A program made the position numbers and the translations under genes. Below are positions 1 to 10,699 of a DNA stretch of 47,596 nt, in pieces. Positions within the stretch are counted from its first letter, which is position 1, and each line of letters starts with the position of its first letter. This DNA comes from Cloacibacillus sp. An23 (GTDB lineage: Bacteria; Synergistota; Synergistia; Synergistales; Synergistaceae). The stretch is from NCBI RefSeq assembly GCF_002159945.1, contig NZ_NFJQ01000016.1:1-47596 (forward strand). Direction: 5' to 3'. Below the pieces are notes generated by a model. The model was not told the origin of the DNA and made no database searches. It worked only from the letters and a program-made list of their open reading frames with translations.

Positions 1-88
1 GCCGGCTGGGCACCCTTGAATGCGCAGCCCCGGCGCGCCACTGGCGGCGGCGCGGGCAGTTTGCGTCCCGTGTATAACCTATGTGTAA

Positions 89-1243
89 TCATGGCGCGAT
101 GCGCCGCACCGCCTCTTCAAGCGAATTTGGAGAAAGATGCGCGTAACGCTGCGTCATCGCCATAGAGCCGTGACACATCAACTTTTGAATAATATGCATA
201 GGCACCCCCTTCATAGCGAGCTGGCTGGCGAAGTCGTGGCGCAGGCAGTGCCACGTGAAATTCTTGATCCCCGCCTTATCCAGCACACGCTTGAAAGCGT
301 GCGCCGTATCGCGCCTTCGGCTGCCGTCGTCCATAGGAAACACGAAGCCGCCGCGTCCTCCGCCCTTCTCGCGCCACGCGGAAAGCGCCGAAAGCGCGGC
401 TCCGTTCAGCGGCATGACGGCGTCGCGCCCTGACTTCATAATCTCGGCGCGAAGCCGCAGCGTGCGCGACGCGAAATCCACGTCCTCCCAGCGCAGCCCC
501 AGCAGCGTCCCCTTGCGAATCCCGGTATTCAGACTGAGAACGACGGCGGGCATCAGATAATCCGGCCCGGACCTGCCCTCGCGGGCGGCGAGCTCCGACA
601 TAAGGCGAGCGCGCTCGTCGTCGCTCAAAAACCGCGTCACGACCTTAGAATCCGTCTGAGCCAGCTTCGGCAGACGAAAAGCCGAAACTCCCGGAATCCC
701 TTCCTTCGCCCCCCACGCGAAAAGCGCCTGCAAAGCCGCGACGCGCCTGTTGATAGTTGCGCGCTTCAGCCGCCCCGCGTTCTCTGAGCGCCACCTTTCC
801 ACAGTATCGCGGTCAAGCGCGCACGCGGGCATATCCATAAACTTGTCGAAAAGACGCAGCGCCCTTATCGTCACCGAGCCGCTCTTCTGATGCGAACACA
901 CCCACGGCTCGTACATATCGATAAGCGCGCGCAGCGAAACAGCCTTGCGCTCCGCCGGCAGACTCACTTCGGCCGGGTCGATACGCTCAAGATAAAGCCT
1001 GGCGAGATACTCCCTAGCCATCCGCCTGGCCACGGCGAGCTGCGTATAAAGCGCGGAAGCGATCTTCTTATTACGCAGCCGCCGCTCGGGCGATGGCGTG
1101 CGGTAACACAGATACCACGTCTTCCGCCCGGAGACCTCGACGCGCATAAAAAGGCCGCGGACAAGCGAGTCACGCAGGTCATAGCGCCGCTCGCGCGGGA
1201 CGGCCGCGTTGCAGATAGCCTGCGTAAGATAAACCAAAGTCAT
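89..1243 (-). CDS. Tyrosine-type site-specific integrase
   Basis: Phage or island integrase that would catalyse strand exchange between attachment sites. The N-terminal ~75 residues resemble the arm-binding domain of P4-like integrases, a SAM-like core-binding domain follows, and the C-terminal catalytic domain carries the family residues: Arg in NTGIRKGTLLGLRW, a Lys in the following beta hairpin (MKSGRD), HCLRH, a later His (MCHGS) and the nucleophile Tyr in QRYAHL. I chose the ATG at 1243 rather than 1249 because GGAGGT sits 8 nt upstream of it. The protein is full length (384 aa) and appears intact. No tRNA gene or clear attachment core is visible on either side, so the extent of the element is unknown; the left part may lie outside the window. 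Confidence 0.93.
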   Translation of the reverse strand: MTLVYLTQAICNAAVPRERRYDLRDSLVRGLFMRVEVSGRKTWYLCYRTPSPERRLRNKKIASALYTQLAVARRMAREYLARLYLERIDPAEVSLPAERKAVSLRALIDMYEPWVCSHQKSGSVTIRALRLFDKFMDMPACALDRDTVERWRSENAGRLKRATINRRVAALQALFAWGAKEGIPGVSAFRLPKLAQTDSKVVTRFLSDDERARLMSELAAREGRSGPDYLMPAVVLSLNTGIRKGTLLGLRWEDVDFASRTLRLRAEIMKSGRDAVMPLNGAALSALSAWREKGGGRGGFVFPMDDGSRRRDTAHAFKRVLDKAGIKNFTWHCLRHDFASQLAMKGVPMHIIQKLMCHGSMAMTQRYAHLSPNSLEEAVRRIAP

Positions 1244-1259
1244 ACACATTACCTCCCTG

Positions 1260-1281
1260 TTCTTGTGTAATTCCTGTGTAA
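1260..1281. repeat. Tandem 11-bp repeat beside the integrase gene
   Basis: Two directly adjacent 11-bp copies, TTCTTGTGTAA and TTCCTGTGTAA, lie just upstream of the integrase start. A related copy, CTATGTGTAA at 79-88, abuts the integrase stop codon. Short direct repeats around an integrase gene are often arm-type binding sites for the recombinase or its excision factor. That role is inference; the repetition itself is directly visible. Confidence 0.45.
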
Positions 1282-1354
1282 CAGATTGTAAATGCGCGCC
1301 GCGCCAGGGAGATTTTGCAAAATTTGCGCAGATTATAAAAATAACCGGGAAAAA

Positions 1355-1363
1355 TGCTATAAT
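1355..1363 (+). promoter_or_regulatory. Extended -10 promoter for the antisense RNA
   Basis: TGCTATAAT is an extended -10 element with a perfect TATAAT (1358-1363). No good -35 hexamer is seen at the normal spacing, as is usual for extended -10 promoters. Transcription would start near 1370 and run toward the terminator at 1553-1584. Confidence 0.45.
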
Positions 1364-1365
1364 TA

Positions 1366-1418
1366 CGAAAGGAAAAGAGAGGCCCCGCCGGAAGGGAAAG
1401 CGGGAAAAACGCCTCTCT
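1366..1418 (-). terminator. Possible terminator of the peptide mRNA
   Basis: Read on the minus strand, AGAGAGGC and GCCTCTCT form an 8-bp stem with an inner CCCGC/GCGGG stem, followed by TTTTCCTTT. The interrupted T tract makes it a weak intrinsic terminator. Confidence 0.35.
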
Positions 1419-1584
1419 CCGGCCTGTCCGAGCTGAGATGGGGACTCAGCCTAGACATTCAAGGCCAAGTGAGGAATCAGCTAAAGGAGGCGGAGCAATT
1501 CCGCCAAAGCTGCGAAAAGCGCCGTTAACGCTGTAAGCAGCTTAACGATTAGAGCCGTCCACTCAAAAAGTGAGCGGCTTTTTT
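1370..1584 (+). ncRNA. Candidate structured antisense RNA (possible type I antitoxin)
   Basis: A stretch of about 215 nt with an extended -10 promoter before it and an intrinsic terminator at its end. It folds into a series of hairpins: AGAGAGGC (1376) with GCCTCTCT (1411), enclosing CCCGC/GCGGG; GCTGAG with CTCAGC near 1431-1449; GGCGGA GCAA TTCCGCC near 1489-1504; and AAGCTGC with GCAGCTT near 1507-1542. It is complementary to nearly the whole 38-codon peptide gene on the minus strand, stopping within its 5' codons. That geometry is known from type I antitoxin RNAs. It is unproven, and some of the structure could instead belong to the minus-strand mRNA. Confidence 0.4.
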
Positions 1585-1597
1585 CGTCCTTTGCCAT
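1481..1597 (-). CDS. Small hydrophobic peptide, candidate type I toxin
   Basis: 38-residue peptide with a charged start (MAKDEKSR), then SLFEW and a continuous hydrophobic helix of about 22 residues rich in Leu and Ala (ALIVKLLTALTALFAALAEL), ending LRLL. This charged-then-single-helix layout resembles holin-like and type I toxin peptides (the BsrG/TxpA and Hol-Tox kind), which insert in the inner membrane. I cannot name a family member with certainty. The ATG at 1597 has AAGGGGGG 8 nt upstream. The minus-strand leader folds into CCTGCC...GGCAGG ending directly before that ribosome site, as expected where translation is controlled. A TATAAT at 1683-1678 gives a promoter, and an antisense transcript covers the gene. 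It lies beside an integrase, a usual home for such loci. Confidence 0.5.
   Translation of the reverse strand: MAKDEKSRSLFEWTALIVKLLTALTALFAALAELLRLL
1553..1584 (+). terminator. Intrinsic terminator of the antisense RNA
   Basis: AGCCG (1553-1557) pairs with CGGCT (1575-1579) and CACTC (1560-1564) with GTGAG (1570-1574), with an AAAAA loop and a two-base bulge. A run of six T follows. Confidence 0.65.
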
Positions 1598-1677
1598 CCG
1601 GTCATCCCCCCTTCCTGCCGGGGGAATCCCTCAAGCTGGCAGGCCCGGCAAACACTGCCACAGGCCCTTCCGCAGAC

Positions 1678-1706
1678 ATTATATCAGCGCGTGCGTGCTG
1701 AGAAAA
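1678..1706 (-). promoter_or_regulatory. Promoter for the 38-codon peptide gene
   Basis: On the minus strand TTTTCT (1706-1701) is followed after 17 bp by a perfect TATAAT (1683-1678). The -35 match is poor, the -10 is good. The leader to the ATG at 1597 would be about 70 nt. Confidence 0.4.
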
Positions 1707-1910
1707 CCACAACGGCGCGGCGGCAGCGAAATACATGTAAGTTGCCGTTGGGTATTGCTTAAGTTAAACAAGCATCCTTAAACTGTACAATTTTATGTAA
1801 ATTATATGAAACATAGGTCTCTGGCCCCATGCGATGAAAAAAAATATATTGTAAAATCCATAACGAACAGACAGAACCGCAGTCTGACACGGCGAAAGCC
1901 GGAACGCATC

Positions 1911-1940
1911 TTGACAATTTGGACTCCCGATTAGCTTAGA
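1911..1940 (+). promoter_or_regulatory. Possible promoter of the SLH porin gene
   Basis: A perfect TTGACA at 1911-1916 is followed after 18 bp by CTTAGA, a weak -10. If used, the porin mRNA has an unusually long leader of over 200 nt, which is common for very abundant envelope proteins. Confidence 0.3.
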
Positions 1941-2161
1941 CTTCCGCGACGACCCTGGACGGCAAGAAAGCGAGGTGAAAACCAACCCCCAGCCAACAAA
2001 GGAGAGCGGAAATTTAAGACGGAAAGAAAAACCGAAGAGCACCGTGCGAAATAAGCGTCAAGGGAACATTGGATACTTACGCGAAAAAGCGCGGCCCCCG
2101 AGGCGGAAATTTCCGTAATACAAAAACACACAAACACAACCAAGGGGGTTGTACATTAACT

Positions 2162-3700
2162 ATGAAAAAGTTTATGGCAGTATTGGCAATGGTAGCCGTC
2201 GTGGCCTTCGCCGCCCCGGCACTTGCAGCGACAAACCCGTTTATGGACGTCCCGCAGGGACACTGGTCGTATGACGCGGTAGGCCTCCTCGCCTCCCGTG
2301 GCATCGTTTCTGGCTATCCGGATGGTGCATTCAAGGGTGCCCAGCCGGCAACTCGTTATGAGATGGCGTCGATAGTGGCGCGCGCGCTCGTGACGGTGGA
2401 CGCGGAAAAGGCTTCCAAGCAGGATATGGAACTCCTCAAGAAGCTCGTCATGGAATTCAAGGATGAGCTCGACGCCCTCGGCGTGAAGGTCGATTCCCTC
2501 GACAAGCGCGTCGCGGTGCTTGAGGACCGTCTCGGTGGATGGAAAGTGAACGGACAGTTCTGGTTCGACGCCCGCTTCGCGAGCAATGATGACAATGGCA
2601 ATAATTCCTATTCTTTTGGAGATACTCCAGAAAAGAATCAGTTTGGTTTTGCCTATGCCCGTCTGATGGTCACGAAGTACATTGACGAAAATACGTACTT
2701 CTTCTTCCGCGCCCGCTTCAACGATGGTTACGGCGACCTTGACAACTGGTTCATGGATCGTTTCTTCGTCAACATGAAGCTGCCCGGAGACATCAACTTC
2801 CGTCTCGGTCGCATCTATAGCGACTGGGAAGGCGATGCCGGACTCTACCACAGCGTAATGGGCGATAACGAAGGTGGACTCTGGAAGGATCAGAAATACG
2901 ACGGATTCAACTTCCAGAAGAGCTTCGGTATGCTCGACGCTGAACTGCTCATCGGTCGTAACTTCAATATCCTTGACAGCAATTATGGTAGCAGCACCTA
3001 CGGTGATAATAATGATTTCATGGAGTATGGTCTTAAGCTTCAGGCTAACTTCAGCGAAAACTTCTATCTCGGTGTTCAGGGCATCTTCTTTGACAACGAC
3101 GGCGATGCCATGGTCACGGATAACACACTGGGACGTCAGGTCGTAACCGACGACATTCAGCAGTATGGCGCGTACCTCAGCTACAGCTTCACGCCCGCGA
3201 TAGCCCTCCGTGGCTACTACTATTGGCAGGATCTCGGCGACAACCCCGTCTACGAGGACAGCCCGATGGCTTGGAGCGCGATGCTCGATGTCAAACAGGA
3301 TCTCCTTAAGTTTACCTCGCTGTGGGTGCAGTACATTGAGCAGGACAACTCCTTCATCGGACCGAGAGCCGCCAACCAGTATCCGGCGATATTCAACCCT
3401 GATCTTAATGGACCAGTTGGACAGGACGGCACGAACAAGACGTGGCTCATCACGGCTGAGCAGCAGTGGGGCGACAGCAAATGGAGCAGCTTCCTCCAGT
3501 ACCTCACCACCGACTGGGACAGCGTTGATTACGACGACACAGACCAGTACACGATTGGTATAGGCTATCAGTACACGCCGCAGATTAAGTTCTGGCTCGC
3601 CTACAACTACATCGACTACGGTGACGGTGCTGGCACTGGTGCGAACGCTTACAAAGGTAACGAAAGCGTAGTACTCTTCCGTACCGCTATCGACTTCTAA
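2162..3700 (+). CDS. SLH-domain outer-membrane porin (OmpM/Omp-alpha type)
   Basis: Major outer-membrane channel that also ties the outer membrane to the cell wall. The start at 2162 gives a clean signal peptide (MKKFMAVLAMVAVVAFAAPALA, cut after ALA), with GGGGG 13 nt upstream. Residues ~25-80 are one S-layer-homology domain (FMDVPQGHWSYDAVGLLASRGIVSGYPDG...TRYEM), known in diderm relatives to bind secondary cell-wall carbohydrate. Residues ~85-125 form a coiled coil (KKLVMEFKDELDALGVKVDSLDKRVAVLE). The remaining ~385 residues alternate aromatic and polar residues in beta-strand fashion and end in a C-terminal Phe, the usual outer-membrane insertion signal. The protein is 512 aa. An earlier in-frame start at 2069 would spoil the signal peptide. 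The gene is monocistronic and ends at a strong terminator. Confidence 0.93.
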   Translation: MKKFMAVLAMVAVVAFAAPALAATNPFMDVPQGHWSYDAVGLLASRGIVSGYPDGAFKGAQPATRYEMASIVARALVTVDAEKASKQDMELLKKLVMEFKDELDALGVKVDSLDKRVAVLEDRLGGWKVNGQFWFDARFASNDDNGNNSYSFGDTPEKNQFGFAYARLMVTKYIDENTYFFFRARFNDGYGDLDNWFMDRFFVNMKLPGDINFRLGRIYSDWEGDAGLYHSVMGDNEGGLWKDQKYDGFNFQKSFGMLDAELLIGRNFNILDSNYGSSTYGDNNDFMEYGLKLQANFSENFYLGVQGIFFDNDGDAMVTDNTLGRQVVTDDIQQYGAYLSYSFTPAIALRGYYYWQDLGDNPVYEDSPMAWSAMLDVKQDLLKFTSLWVQYIEQDNSFIGPRAANQYPAIFNPDLNGPVGQDGTNKTWLITAEQQWGDSKWSSFLQYLTTDWDSVDYDDTDQYTIGIGYQYTPQIKFWLAYNYIDYGDGAGTGANAYKGNESVVLFRTAIDF

Positions 3701-3721
3701 TTCAGCCTAGCTGAAATCCTC

Positions 3722-3749
3722 AGAGAGACCCGAAAGGGTCTCTCTTTTT
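3722..3749 (+). terminator. Intrinsic terminator of the porin gene
   Basis: AGAGAGACCC, GAAA loop, GGGTCTCTCT, then TTTT: a perfect 10-bp stem and T run 21 nt after the porin stop codon. Confidence 0.92.
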
Positions 3750-3888
3750 CTAGGTATACTCCGCCTGCTTACGGAATCCAGCCACGCCGCCGTATGGTCA
3801 TTTAACTACAGAAGACAAATCCCAGTCCGGTTTCACCATGCGGTTATTCGCGTCAATTTTAGCCTAACAACTAAAAAGTAAGACAAAA

Positions 3889-3928
3889 GTTTCATGCTAT
3901 TTAGTTATTTGACTAAATATGATGAAAC
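3889..3928. promoter_or_regulatory. 40-bp inverted repeat upstream of the exported-protein gene
   Basis: GTTTCAT (3889) pairs with ATGAAAC (3922) and TATTTAGT with ACTAAATA, leaving a TATTTG loop and a tiny internal loop. It lies 44 bp before the start codon in AT-rich sequence. It could be a regulator operator or an mRNA leader hairpin; there is no T run, so it is not a terminator. Confidence 0.5.
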
Positions 3929-3971
3929 AATTAACCACATCACGACATCCACCACACAGGAGGATTAAACA

Positions 3972-4742
3972 TTGACTAAGCAGAAGACATCCTCATGGAT
4001 AAAGATTTTCACCATAGCCGTATTCATAACGGCAATATGCGCAGCGGCTTACGCCGCGTCTTTAGACAATATTCTTATGAGATGGCGCAAAACGGCAAAA
4101 TATGAGGACGGCACCAGCAACCTGACGGTCGCCGTAACTTACTACTCCGCAGAGCTTGTGGAAGCGGAGATACAGGCGGAAGCCGAGAAGAACCTCTGGA
4201 CGCAGGACGAGCTTGAGCGCTATAAGTACCGCTATCTCCAGATGCTCAATCTCAGCGAGATGATTCCTATAAAAGTTGAGTTTGTAAACAACGGTCCGAC
4301 GATGCACCCGGGGCCTTTCGATAAGATGATAGACATGACTATAGGTAATAAAACATACGAGCCTGCCGACTATGACAAACGTTTGAATTTCCCGTTCCAG
4401 GGAGAAAAAGACGGGCTTGTGTTCTTCAACCGCTTCGACCCGAAGACGGGTAAGAATATACTCGACGGGCAGAAGCGCGTAACTATAACGCTGAGCCCCG
4501 GCATAAGCGCGATAATATCTTCGCGCGGAAGAAACGCCCGTTTCTTCTGGGACATCAATAAGGACGACCCGAGCAAGCTTTACGCTGGGGCGACCGCGGC
4601 GCGGCTTGAGACCGACCGTCTTATCAAGCGCCTTGAAAATCTGCGCAAGGACAGAGCGGATGAAGCCGCGCGCCTCAAGGCTATCGACGACGAAATCAGC
4701 ACCGTACAGTCGAGGCTTGACGAGCTTGCCACTATTCAGTAG
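3972..4742 (+). CDS. Exported protein of unknown function with C-terminal coiled coil
   Basis: I do not recognise this family. The start is a TTG at 3972 with AGGAGGA 7 nt upstream. Residues ~10-30 are a hydrophobic segment (IFTIAVFITAICAAAYAA) that looks like a signal peptide or membrane anchor, with possible cleavage after AYAA. The middle is soluble and mixed, with a predicted beta-rich part (IPIKVEFVNNGPTMHPG...VTITLSPGISAIISS). Residues ~205-256 are a charged heptad coiled coil (LIKRLENLRKDRADEAARLKAIDDEISTVQSRLDEL). A periplasmic or membrane-anchored role is likely. It follows the porin but has its own upstream inverted repeat and own terminator, so it is probably transcribed separately. 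Confidence 0.8.
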   Translation: MTKQKTSSWIKIFTIAVFITAICAAAYAASLDNILMRWRKTAKYEDGTSNLTVAVTYYSAELVEAEIQAEAEKNLWTQDELERYKYRYLQMLNLSEMIPIKVEFVNNGPTMHPGPFDKMIDMTIGNKTYEPADYDKRLNFPFQGEKDGLVFFNRFDPKTGKNILDGQKRVTITLSPGISAIISSRGRNARFFWDINKDDPSKLYAGATAARLETDRLIKRLENLRKDRADEAARLKAIDDEISTVQSRLDELATIQ

Positions 4743-9615: not shown

Positions 9616-10140
9616 ATGCGCTTCGCCGTCAGGCCGATGGCTGAGCATGAATACGTGCTGCTCGAGGATTTTTTATACGAGGCCGTTTTCGTGCCCGAGG
9701 GGGCTCCAGCGCCGCCGCGTTCGATAGTGAGGCTGCCGGAGCTCCGTGTATATATCGAGGATTTCGGCAAAAGAAGGGACGACGCGGCGCTCGCCGCCGA
9801 AGCGGACGGGCGCGTCATAGGCGCGATATGGGCGCGCGTCATGGACGACTACGGTCACGTGGACGGCGAAACGCCCTCGCTCGCTATAGCGGTGCTGAAA
9901 GAATACCGCGGGCGCGGCGCCGGCACGGCCATGCTCGGCGAGATGCTCCGCCTGCTTAAACAAAGGAATTACAAGCGCGTCTCCCTCTCAGTACAAAGGG
10001 CCAACTACGCCGTGAAAATGTATCTCAGGGCCGGATTTGAAGTAGTCCGCGGCGAGGGCGAAGAATACGTGATGCTGCGCCGGCTGTGGCCGCAGTCCGT
10101 CCGCGCTACGACTTCACCTTCGACTCCGTGCCGTCCATGA
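9616..10140 (+). CDS. GNAT-family N-acetyltransferase
   Basis: Acetyl-CoA-dependent acyltransferase of unknown substrate. The acetyl-CoA loop is visible as LKEYRGRGAGTAMLGEML, preceded by a beta strand (SLAIAVL) and followed by VSLSVQRANYAVKMYLRAGFEVV, the usual motif A and B arrangement. The start at 9616 (MRFAVRPM) is preferred because GGGGGC precedes it at normal distance. The last 35 bases overlap the 3' end of plsY on the other strand, so the two transcripts converge and overlap. Confidence 0.85.
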   Translation: MRFAVRPMAEHEYVLLEDFLYEAVFVPEGAPAPPRSIVRLPELRVYIEDFGKRRDDAALAAEADGRVIGAIWARVMDDYGHVDGETPSLAIAVLKEYRGRGAGTAMLGEMLRLLKQRNYKRVSLSVQRANYAVKMYLRAGFEVVRGEGEEYVMLRRLWPQSVRATTSPSTPCRP

Positions 10141-10699
10141 GGCGCGCTATGTTGGCGCGGTGACGCCACGACGAGAGGCAGGCGAGGAAGAGCGCGGCCG
10201 CGGCGTATGGCTTCGGCATTCCCCATAAAAAGGTGAGCAGGGCCGCGGCGAAGAGCCCCGCGAGCGAGGCTACGGAGACATATTTCGTGAAACGCATGAC
10301 GGCGTACCAGACGAGGCCGCCCAAGAGCGCGGGCCACGGCGTGAAAAAGTCGAAGAAGGCGATGACGCCGAAAGTCGTAGCCACCCCCTTGCCCCCCTTG
10401 AAGCCGAGCCAGACGGGATAGTTGTGGCCGAGGACGGCGCATACTCCCGTGAGCGCGAGCAGCGAGGGCGATGACGTAAAGCGCGAGGCCGCGAGCAGCG
10501 CGAGGCCGCCCTTGAGCATGTCGAAGACGGCGACGGCGACGGCCCATTTCTTCCCCATCAGGCGGCCTACGTTCGTCGCGCCGGTGTTGCCCGAGCCGTA
10601 TGACCGTATGTCCGCGCCGCGCGCGTATTTCACGGCGAGGTAGCCGGTCGGGCACGAGCCTGCGAGGTAGCCGAAGAGAGCGCAAAGTATGAAGCCCAT
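10106..10699 (-). CDS. plsY: Acyl-phosphate glycerol-3-phosphate acyltransferase
   Basis: Membrane enzyme that transfers an acyl group from acyl phosphate to glycerol-3-phosphate, the first step of phospholipid synthesis with PlsX. The start at 10699 (MGFILCALFGYLAGSCPTGYL) gives 197 aa, the usual size. Conserved loops are present: GSGNTGATNVGR, HNYPVWLGFKGGKGVAT and the C-terminal WRHRANIARL. About five membrane segments alternate with them. The upstream ribosome site is weak. Its 3' end overlaps the GNAT gene tail to tail. Confidence 0.95.
   Translation of the reverse strand: MGFILCALFGYLAGSCPTGYLAVKYARGADIRSYGSGNTGATNVGRLMGKKWAVAVAVFDMLKGGLALLAASRFTSSPSLLALTGVCAVLGHNYPVWLGFKGGKGVATTFGVIAFFDFFTPWPALLGGLVWYAVMRFTKYVSVASLAGLFAAALLTFLWGMPKPYAAAALFLACLSSWRHRANIARLMDGTESKVKS

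Follow-up and report, generated by a model that had tools for sequence, protein, structure and literature searches.

A candidate type I toxin-antitoxin-like peptide module with a predicted cis-encoded antisense RNA, found in multiple copies across Synergistota

Positions 1350 to 1710 of a contig from Cloacibacillus sp. An23 raise the question of whether a small peptide gene and an RNA transcribed against it form a type I toxin-antitoxin system. The window, i.e. the whole stretch of DNA analyzed, is a contig of 47,596 nt (NZ_NFJQ01000016.1) from this 2.9 Mb genome. The elements on which the original prediction was built are all present in it. An open reading frame (ORF) of 38 codons runs from 1597 to 1481 on the minus strand and encodes MAKDEKSRSLFEWTALIVKLLTALTALFAALAELLRLL, a putative toxin with a charged N-terminus and a single Leu/Ala-rich helix with AELLRLL at its end. 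It is preceded at good spacing by the Shine-Dalgarno (SD) sequence AAGGGGGG (1613-1606), and further upstream by a −10 TATAAT (1683-1678) from which transcription is predicted to start at 1671. The sequence CCCCC at 1624-1620 is an anti-SD that pairs with 1611-1607, closing the leader hairpin proposed at the ribosome site. The possible terminator of the peptide mRNA can be assigned, from folding and from relatives, to a minus-strand hairpin at 1377-1417 that is followed by UUUUCCUUU and has a loop CCCUUCC at 1390-1396. Together the −10 and this hairpin define a predicted mRNA of ~300 nt (1671-1370). On the plus strand there is an extended −10 sequence TGCTATAAT at 1355-1363, and a terminator, placed originally at 1553-1584 and found at 1554-1584, with its stem at 1554-1578 and a T-run at 1579-1584. 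This promoter and terminator would generate an antisense RNA of ~215 nt (1370-1585), and the predicted U-rich 3′ end of the mRNA and the predicted antisense start lie back to back. Between the stop codon and the mRNA terminator is a structured domain common to the 3′-UTR and the antisense RNA, GGCC-UGUC-CUGAG..CUCAG-GAC-GGCC (1421-1466); it is conserved in relatives, and an equivalent stem is visible in a second family.

A generic scan of positions 1-4000 for promoter and terminator consensus sequences gave no excess over shuffled sequences, and listed none of the elements of the locus. The sequence of the window alone therefore cannot separate the claim from chance. RNA folding does exceed that of shuffled sequences, with z = −4.6 for 1368-1585 of the plus strand and z = −3.8 for the minus strand. 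Comparison with relatives settles the matter, and on that comparative basis the observation of the locus is confirmed.

DNA searches revealed a second copy in the same genome (contig C5, 71% identical) and four copies at 76-83% in Candidatus Caccocola faecipullorum, the other genome of the genus, and none in 59 other genomes of the same family and order. The genus copies retain the minus-strand ORF and the plus-strand TATAAT, with TGnTATAAT in all except L006, and the SD hairpin is retained wherever the contig extends far enough. Two of these copies have peculiarities of their own. In the sister copy in the window genome (L002, about 9775-10174 of G000:C5) the ORF is lengthened to 104 codons and the antisense promoter is kept, and the antisense terminator is an unrelated perfect hairpin lying deeper into the ORF; this copy is a diverging or decaying member of the family. 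L003 has an insert of ~90 nt with strong hairpins in the mRNA leader (about 1775-1870), flanked by the SD hairpin and the 5′ structure, and is otherwise intact.

A peptide profile, built from five sequences and then from 23, extended the family to the phylum. Of 188 Synergistota genomes 59 gave matches, representing 16 of the 63 genera; E-values per genome went down to 1e-15, a single genome held as many as 13 copies, and the anatomy is shared across ~100 distant copies. A search for the peptide with conserved flanks in other Synergistota had been suggested as a check, and the positions of the elements are indeed conserved. The spread within the phylum was counted in these 188 genomes, and other phyla were covered by a scan of a genome-contig collection, which returned three Caccocola loci and a weak match of 17 residues in Woesearchaeota that we treat as chance. 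Peptide and DNA patterns found no relatives in a viral contig collection, so there is no sign of phage carriage there. Some copies form tandem arrays with a period of 300-400 bp (G133:C95, G118:C99, G114:C51 and G130:C4). Such arrays, and the presence of up to 13 copies in a genome, are what would be expected of a small selfish REP- or MITE-like repeat that spreads in one piece and carries promoters and terminators only incidentally. We consider this extremely improbable, since copies within a genome have diverged (71-83% in Caccocola, and 103 distinct peptides among 106 copies) and the peptide is evidently under purifying selection, as set out below.

The ORF is intact in some 106 copies, where it has 24-40 codons and begins with GTG or ATG, and in nearly all relatives the start is preceded at good spacing by GAAAGG(G/A)GGTGA. 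Between pairs of copies that are 70-97% alike, 55% of the codons with a single change are synonymous, compared with 27% expected, and the three codon positions carry 1438, 916 and 2217 changes respectively. The five Caccocola copies have 40 synonymous and 42 non-synonymous changes, which also exceeds the expectation of 0.27. Breakage of the ORF in relatives had been named beforehand as the result that would count against the prediction. That refutation fails, because start, SD and frame are kept with a synonymous bias. The pattern of changes indicates that the family peptide is translated and under purifying selection. The peptides have a median length of 28 aa and a net charge of +3, and with a mean moment of 0.49 they are strongly amphipathic as well as cationic. 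Their charged residues are spaced at 3, 4, 7, 10, 14 and 17, corresponding to a charged stripe. Type I toxins are hydrophobic or amphipathic peptides of less than ~60 aa, and a helical amphipathic peptide of this length under coding constraint is of that kind. The same data bear on the possibility that the functional product is a structured regulatory RNA from the plus strand, with the ORF incidental. Conservation is highest in the 5′ part of the plus-strand RNA, which also folds well. Yet ~106 copies retain start, SD and frame, synonymous changes are twice as frequent as expected, and SD and anti-SD change together (see below), so that this explanation seems very improbable.

The antisense RNA is marked out by both of its ends. 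TATAAT is found on the antisense strand downstream of the stop codon, mostly by 80-120 nt, in 84 of 94 loci, compared with 5.8 (sd 2.0) in dinucleotide shuffles; on the sense strand it occurs in the same stretch in 11 of the 94. The extended TGn precedes the antisense TATAAT in 48 of 92 loci. Of 106 copies, 99 have an intrinsic terminator for the antisense strand within the ORF, whereas resampling of synonymous codons gives 14.4 (sd 2.9, maximum 19), and sense-strand terminators inside the ORF number four in the same 106. The stem and U-tract of the antisense terminator usually fall in the codons of the peptide motif IIKLV or IIKLL; in the window and its close relatives they are placed in N-terminal codons, those for EKSRSLFEWTA. 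The predicted antisense RNA has a median length of 171 nt in the relatives. It covers the 3′-UTR and most of the ORF of the mRNA with full complementarity, and ends before the SD. Judged by comparative sequence, the locus includes a putative gene for an antisense RNA, equipped with a promoter and a terminator, whose product would overlap the toxin mRNA. One stretch of DNA is constrained simultaneously as peptide codons, as mRNA hairpins and as the terminator of a putative antitoxin.

The peptide mRNA has a corresponding terminator-like hairpin at its 3′ position in 65 of 92 loci, compared with 26 in controls. We dropped a reading of the ORF as a leader peptide or attenuator, as the mRNA ends at a terminator of its own and the copies showed no conserved gene downstream. 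The leader hairpin gains support from covariation, as SD and anti-SD types change together across loci (GGGGG with CCCCC, and GGAGG with CCTCC; odds ratio 8.75, p = 0.001). There is a second pairing within the mRNA. The word GGAAGGG at its 5′ end (+1 to +7, 1671-1665) can pair with the loop of the terminator hairpin at the 3′ end, and in the window the match is perfect over 8 nt. Among the loci the paired 5′ words vary (GGAGAGG, GGCGAGG, GGCAAGGT, GGGAAGC, GGACAGG, GGCAGGT, GGGGAT and GAAGAGG), and own partners are more complementary than swapped partners, with a mean score of 19.28 compared with 17.88 (sd 0.29; z = 4.9). None of 20,000 permutations of partners reached the score of the own partners, and in an independent version based on energy the own mean lay beyond all 10,000 permutations. 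The median rank of own over swapped partners is modest because GGAGAGG is common to many loci. Strand complementarity cannot explain the covariation, since the two words lie at opposite ends of the transcript. For 47 of 73 loci the distance from a −10 hexamer to the word is 6-8 nt, which places the word at predicted nucleotide +1 or +2 of the mRNA; in the window it begins precisely at the predicted +1, base 1671. The covariation across loci thus points to an mRNA whose 5′ end pairs with its 3′ end, as in hok, and together with the SD/anti-SD covariation to elements in cis that mask the SD or keep the toxin mRNA in a locked form. Such a fold-back works like hok, and is no proof of being hok.

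Nested folding of the window mRNA does not contain the pairing between 5′ word and loop, and the 5′ end pairs instead with the very 3′ end. The 5′-3′ contact in the window would be a pseudoknot, and would therefore be invisible to nested folding. In the same calculation the SD is 0.26 unpaired, with or without the 3′ end. As the SD is mostly paired regardless of the 3′ end, the local SD hairpin is likely to be the main translational block in the window copy.

Coding constraint, both −10 sequences, both terminators, the SD pairing and the 5′-3′ pairing are thus established at the level of comparison between copies, and the conservation in position of every proposed element supports the reading as a type I toxin-antitoxin system. 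We put the probability at roughly 0.8 that the locus is a type I toxin-antitoxin-like module, in which an antisense RNA represses a TisB-like amphipathic membrane peptide, and that it belongs to a large multicopy family in Synergistota. The extended ORF of L002, the nested fold of the window mRNA and the scores of the peptides, below threshold for every known toxin family, speak against this reading. That the module is transcribed, that the peptide is repressed, and that it is toxic and acts at the membrane, is what we infer from this anatomy. By analogy with TisB the peptide would be a membrane toxin, as it is short, cationic and helical with a similar strip of charge. The minus strand would give the ~300-nt mRNA for a 38-residue membrane-active helical peptide, and the plus strand the ~215-nt antisense RNA, from a promoter beyond the 3′ end of the mRNA to a terminator in the peptide codons. 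The SD hairpin with its upstream anti-SD would keep the mRNA silent, and a second silencing, of a kind known from the hok and AapA mRNAs, would come from its first 7-8 nt binding the loop of the hairpin at which it terminates. In both of those systems the full-length mRNA is inert, and 3′ trimming precedes translation (PMC6733600). Activation would be expected in the same way here, with trimming of the 3′ hairpin releasing the 5′ end. The antisense RNA would then remove the activated mRNA, pairing with it probably from exposed loops, and leading to a block of translation or to decay by RNase III. If the level of antisense RNA dropped, peptide would be made, enter the inner membrane and depolarize the cell, as TisB does.

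The same RNA anatomy could serve a peptide that is not a self-toxin, for example a secreted PSM-like or bacteriocin-like agent, or a modulator of membrane stress, kept low by the antisense RNA. The strongly amphipathic and cationic character of the peptides would suit such a role. However, the peptides carry neither a signal nor a leader sequence, and genes for export or immunity were not seen next to the copies. Moreover, layered silencing by SD occlusion, 5′-3′ lock and antisense RNA is what is found on the type I toxins hok and AapA (PMC6733600). We regard a role other than self-toxin as unlikely.

What then of the genomic setting? The locus had been described as lying beside an integrase. 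This is true of the window and of one Caccocola relative, and false for the other copies, and we therefore rejected the integrase as a component of the system. In the window, positions 1-2349 are bounded by a perfect 23-bp inverted repeat (1-23 and 2327-2349). The segment holds a tyrosine integrase (89-1249, minus strand) and the toxin-antitoxin-like locus, together with the promoter of an OmpM-like SLH porin and the part of its gene for the signal peptide and head; the break in the assembly falls exactly on base 1. There are six occurrences of the 23-mer in the genome, and elsewhere it opens four other porin copies. The signal peptide and head of a porin are visible in front of it only at window position 2327; the other copies of the 23-mer start abruptly at AFKGAQPATRYEM or sit at the ends of the stretch read, and porin copies with readable upstream DNA are mostly headless cassettes beginning at AFKGAQPATRYEM. 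The segment is likely to be a tyrosine-recombinase porin switch with the toxin-antitoxin-like locus inside it, judging from this arrangement. Proximity to porins extends beyond the window. Among genomes of the second family (f3), eight have a copy no more than 2.5 kb from an OmpM-like SLH porin gene, when ~0.3 would be expected (G082:C86, G110:C114, G111:C70, G118:C99, G122:C63, G133:C95, G140:C101 and G141:C107), and such a porin is also near the copy in the window (within 1350-3700) and near one Caccocola copy (L133). A more far-reaching proposal would be that of a phylum-specific type I superfamily with an independently evolved hok/AapA-like lock and a terminator in the toxin codons, tied to porin loci, and in Caccocola guarding the recombinase-driven porin switch against loss. 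Taken as a whole, we think this unlikely.

Two further observations concern neighbors of individual copies. Two tandem, near-identical ORFs (MLEDTLGLEAGAKYKIIIYKDITPDAKKIFRAV...) adjoin the tandem array in G118:C99 (L138, 2112-2896). An ORF ending ...DPDFVKVTAGEMRDIEEGMRQIEDGEYVDLDKL that adjoins a copy in G001:C161 (L133, 3647-4015) resembles a type II antitoxin.

Synergistota are common anaerobes of the gut and mouth. According to a paper from July 2025, which describes a case in Cyanobacteria, type I systems had until then been found in no phyla other than Proteobacteria, Firmicutes and Tenericutes (PMC12390103). A search of the open-access literature, by title and abstract, returned nothing relevant on type I or toxin-antitoxin systems in Synergistetes or Synergistota, and a prior prediction elsewhere is possible. 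Systems of this kind are already known; the family, its phylum and its layout are apparently undescribed. If the reading is correct, the family adds Synergistota to the phyla with type I systems, with more than 100 copies. It would also provide another, apparently unrelated, covarying 5′-3′ pairing in an mRNA, with which to test whether type I toxins have converged on such a lock.

How does the module compare with known systems? The original prediction left homology to any named family open, and that stands for Pfam, NCBIfam and Rfam, where nothing exceeds threshold. In Rfam the window and 20 relatives gave only a tRNA, with the locus above the gathering threshold of no family. Seven peptides matched no Pfam or NCBIfam family above threshold, TisB being sub-threshold with best scores of 12.7 bits against a cut-off of 25 (Pfam PF13939) and 8.3 against 38 (NCBIfam TIGR04459); a match to Babuvirus_MP, at 13.1 bits against 27, was taken as chance. 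TisB is of similar length at 29 aa, and is likewise an amphipathic helix with its charges on one strip (PMC8309996). However, its antitoxin IstR-1 is trans-encoded and targets a 5′ standby site (PMC8309996), whereas the Synergistota antisense RNA is encoded in cis over the ORF and 3′-UTR. With hok/Sok the family shares an antisense RNA on the opposite strand and an mRNA locked by 5′-3′ pairing, here supported by coupled covariation, but the peptide is unrelated, having no match to the Hok family in Pfam or NCBIfam, and the phylum is different. In addition Sok is directed at the leader, where the antisense RNA here would be directed at the ORF and 3′-UTR.

The antisense RNA IsoA lies over the 5′ part of the AapA toxin mRNA. 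In the Synergistota family it spans instead the 3′-UTR and ORF, starting beyond the 3′ end of the mRNA and ending inside the ORF, and at ~171-215 nt it is longer than the 80-bp IsoA duplex. The peptide also differs, and masking of the SD here falls to a local anti-SD on its upstream side. Nevertheless AapA/IsoA of Helicobacter and Campylobacter is similar in having a small peptide in several copies per genome with a cis-overlapping antisense RNA, and an mRNA with SD-masking hairpins and a long-distance 5′-3′ interaction (PMC6733600). In TxpA/RatA, BsrG/SR4 and YonT/SR6 of Bacillus, and in systems of the Fst/SprA types, a convergent antisense RNA overlaps the 3′ side of the toxin gene, as it does here. 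The family peptides have no match to the Bacillus-type or Fst/Ldr toxins in Pfam or NCBIfam, and lack the PxxxGC motif of Fst/Ldr, with proline in just three of the 106. The Synergistota modules differ from all of these in the position of the antitoxin terminator, which is placed systematically within the codons of the toxin.
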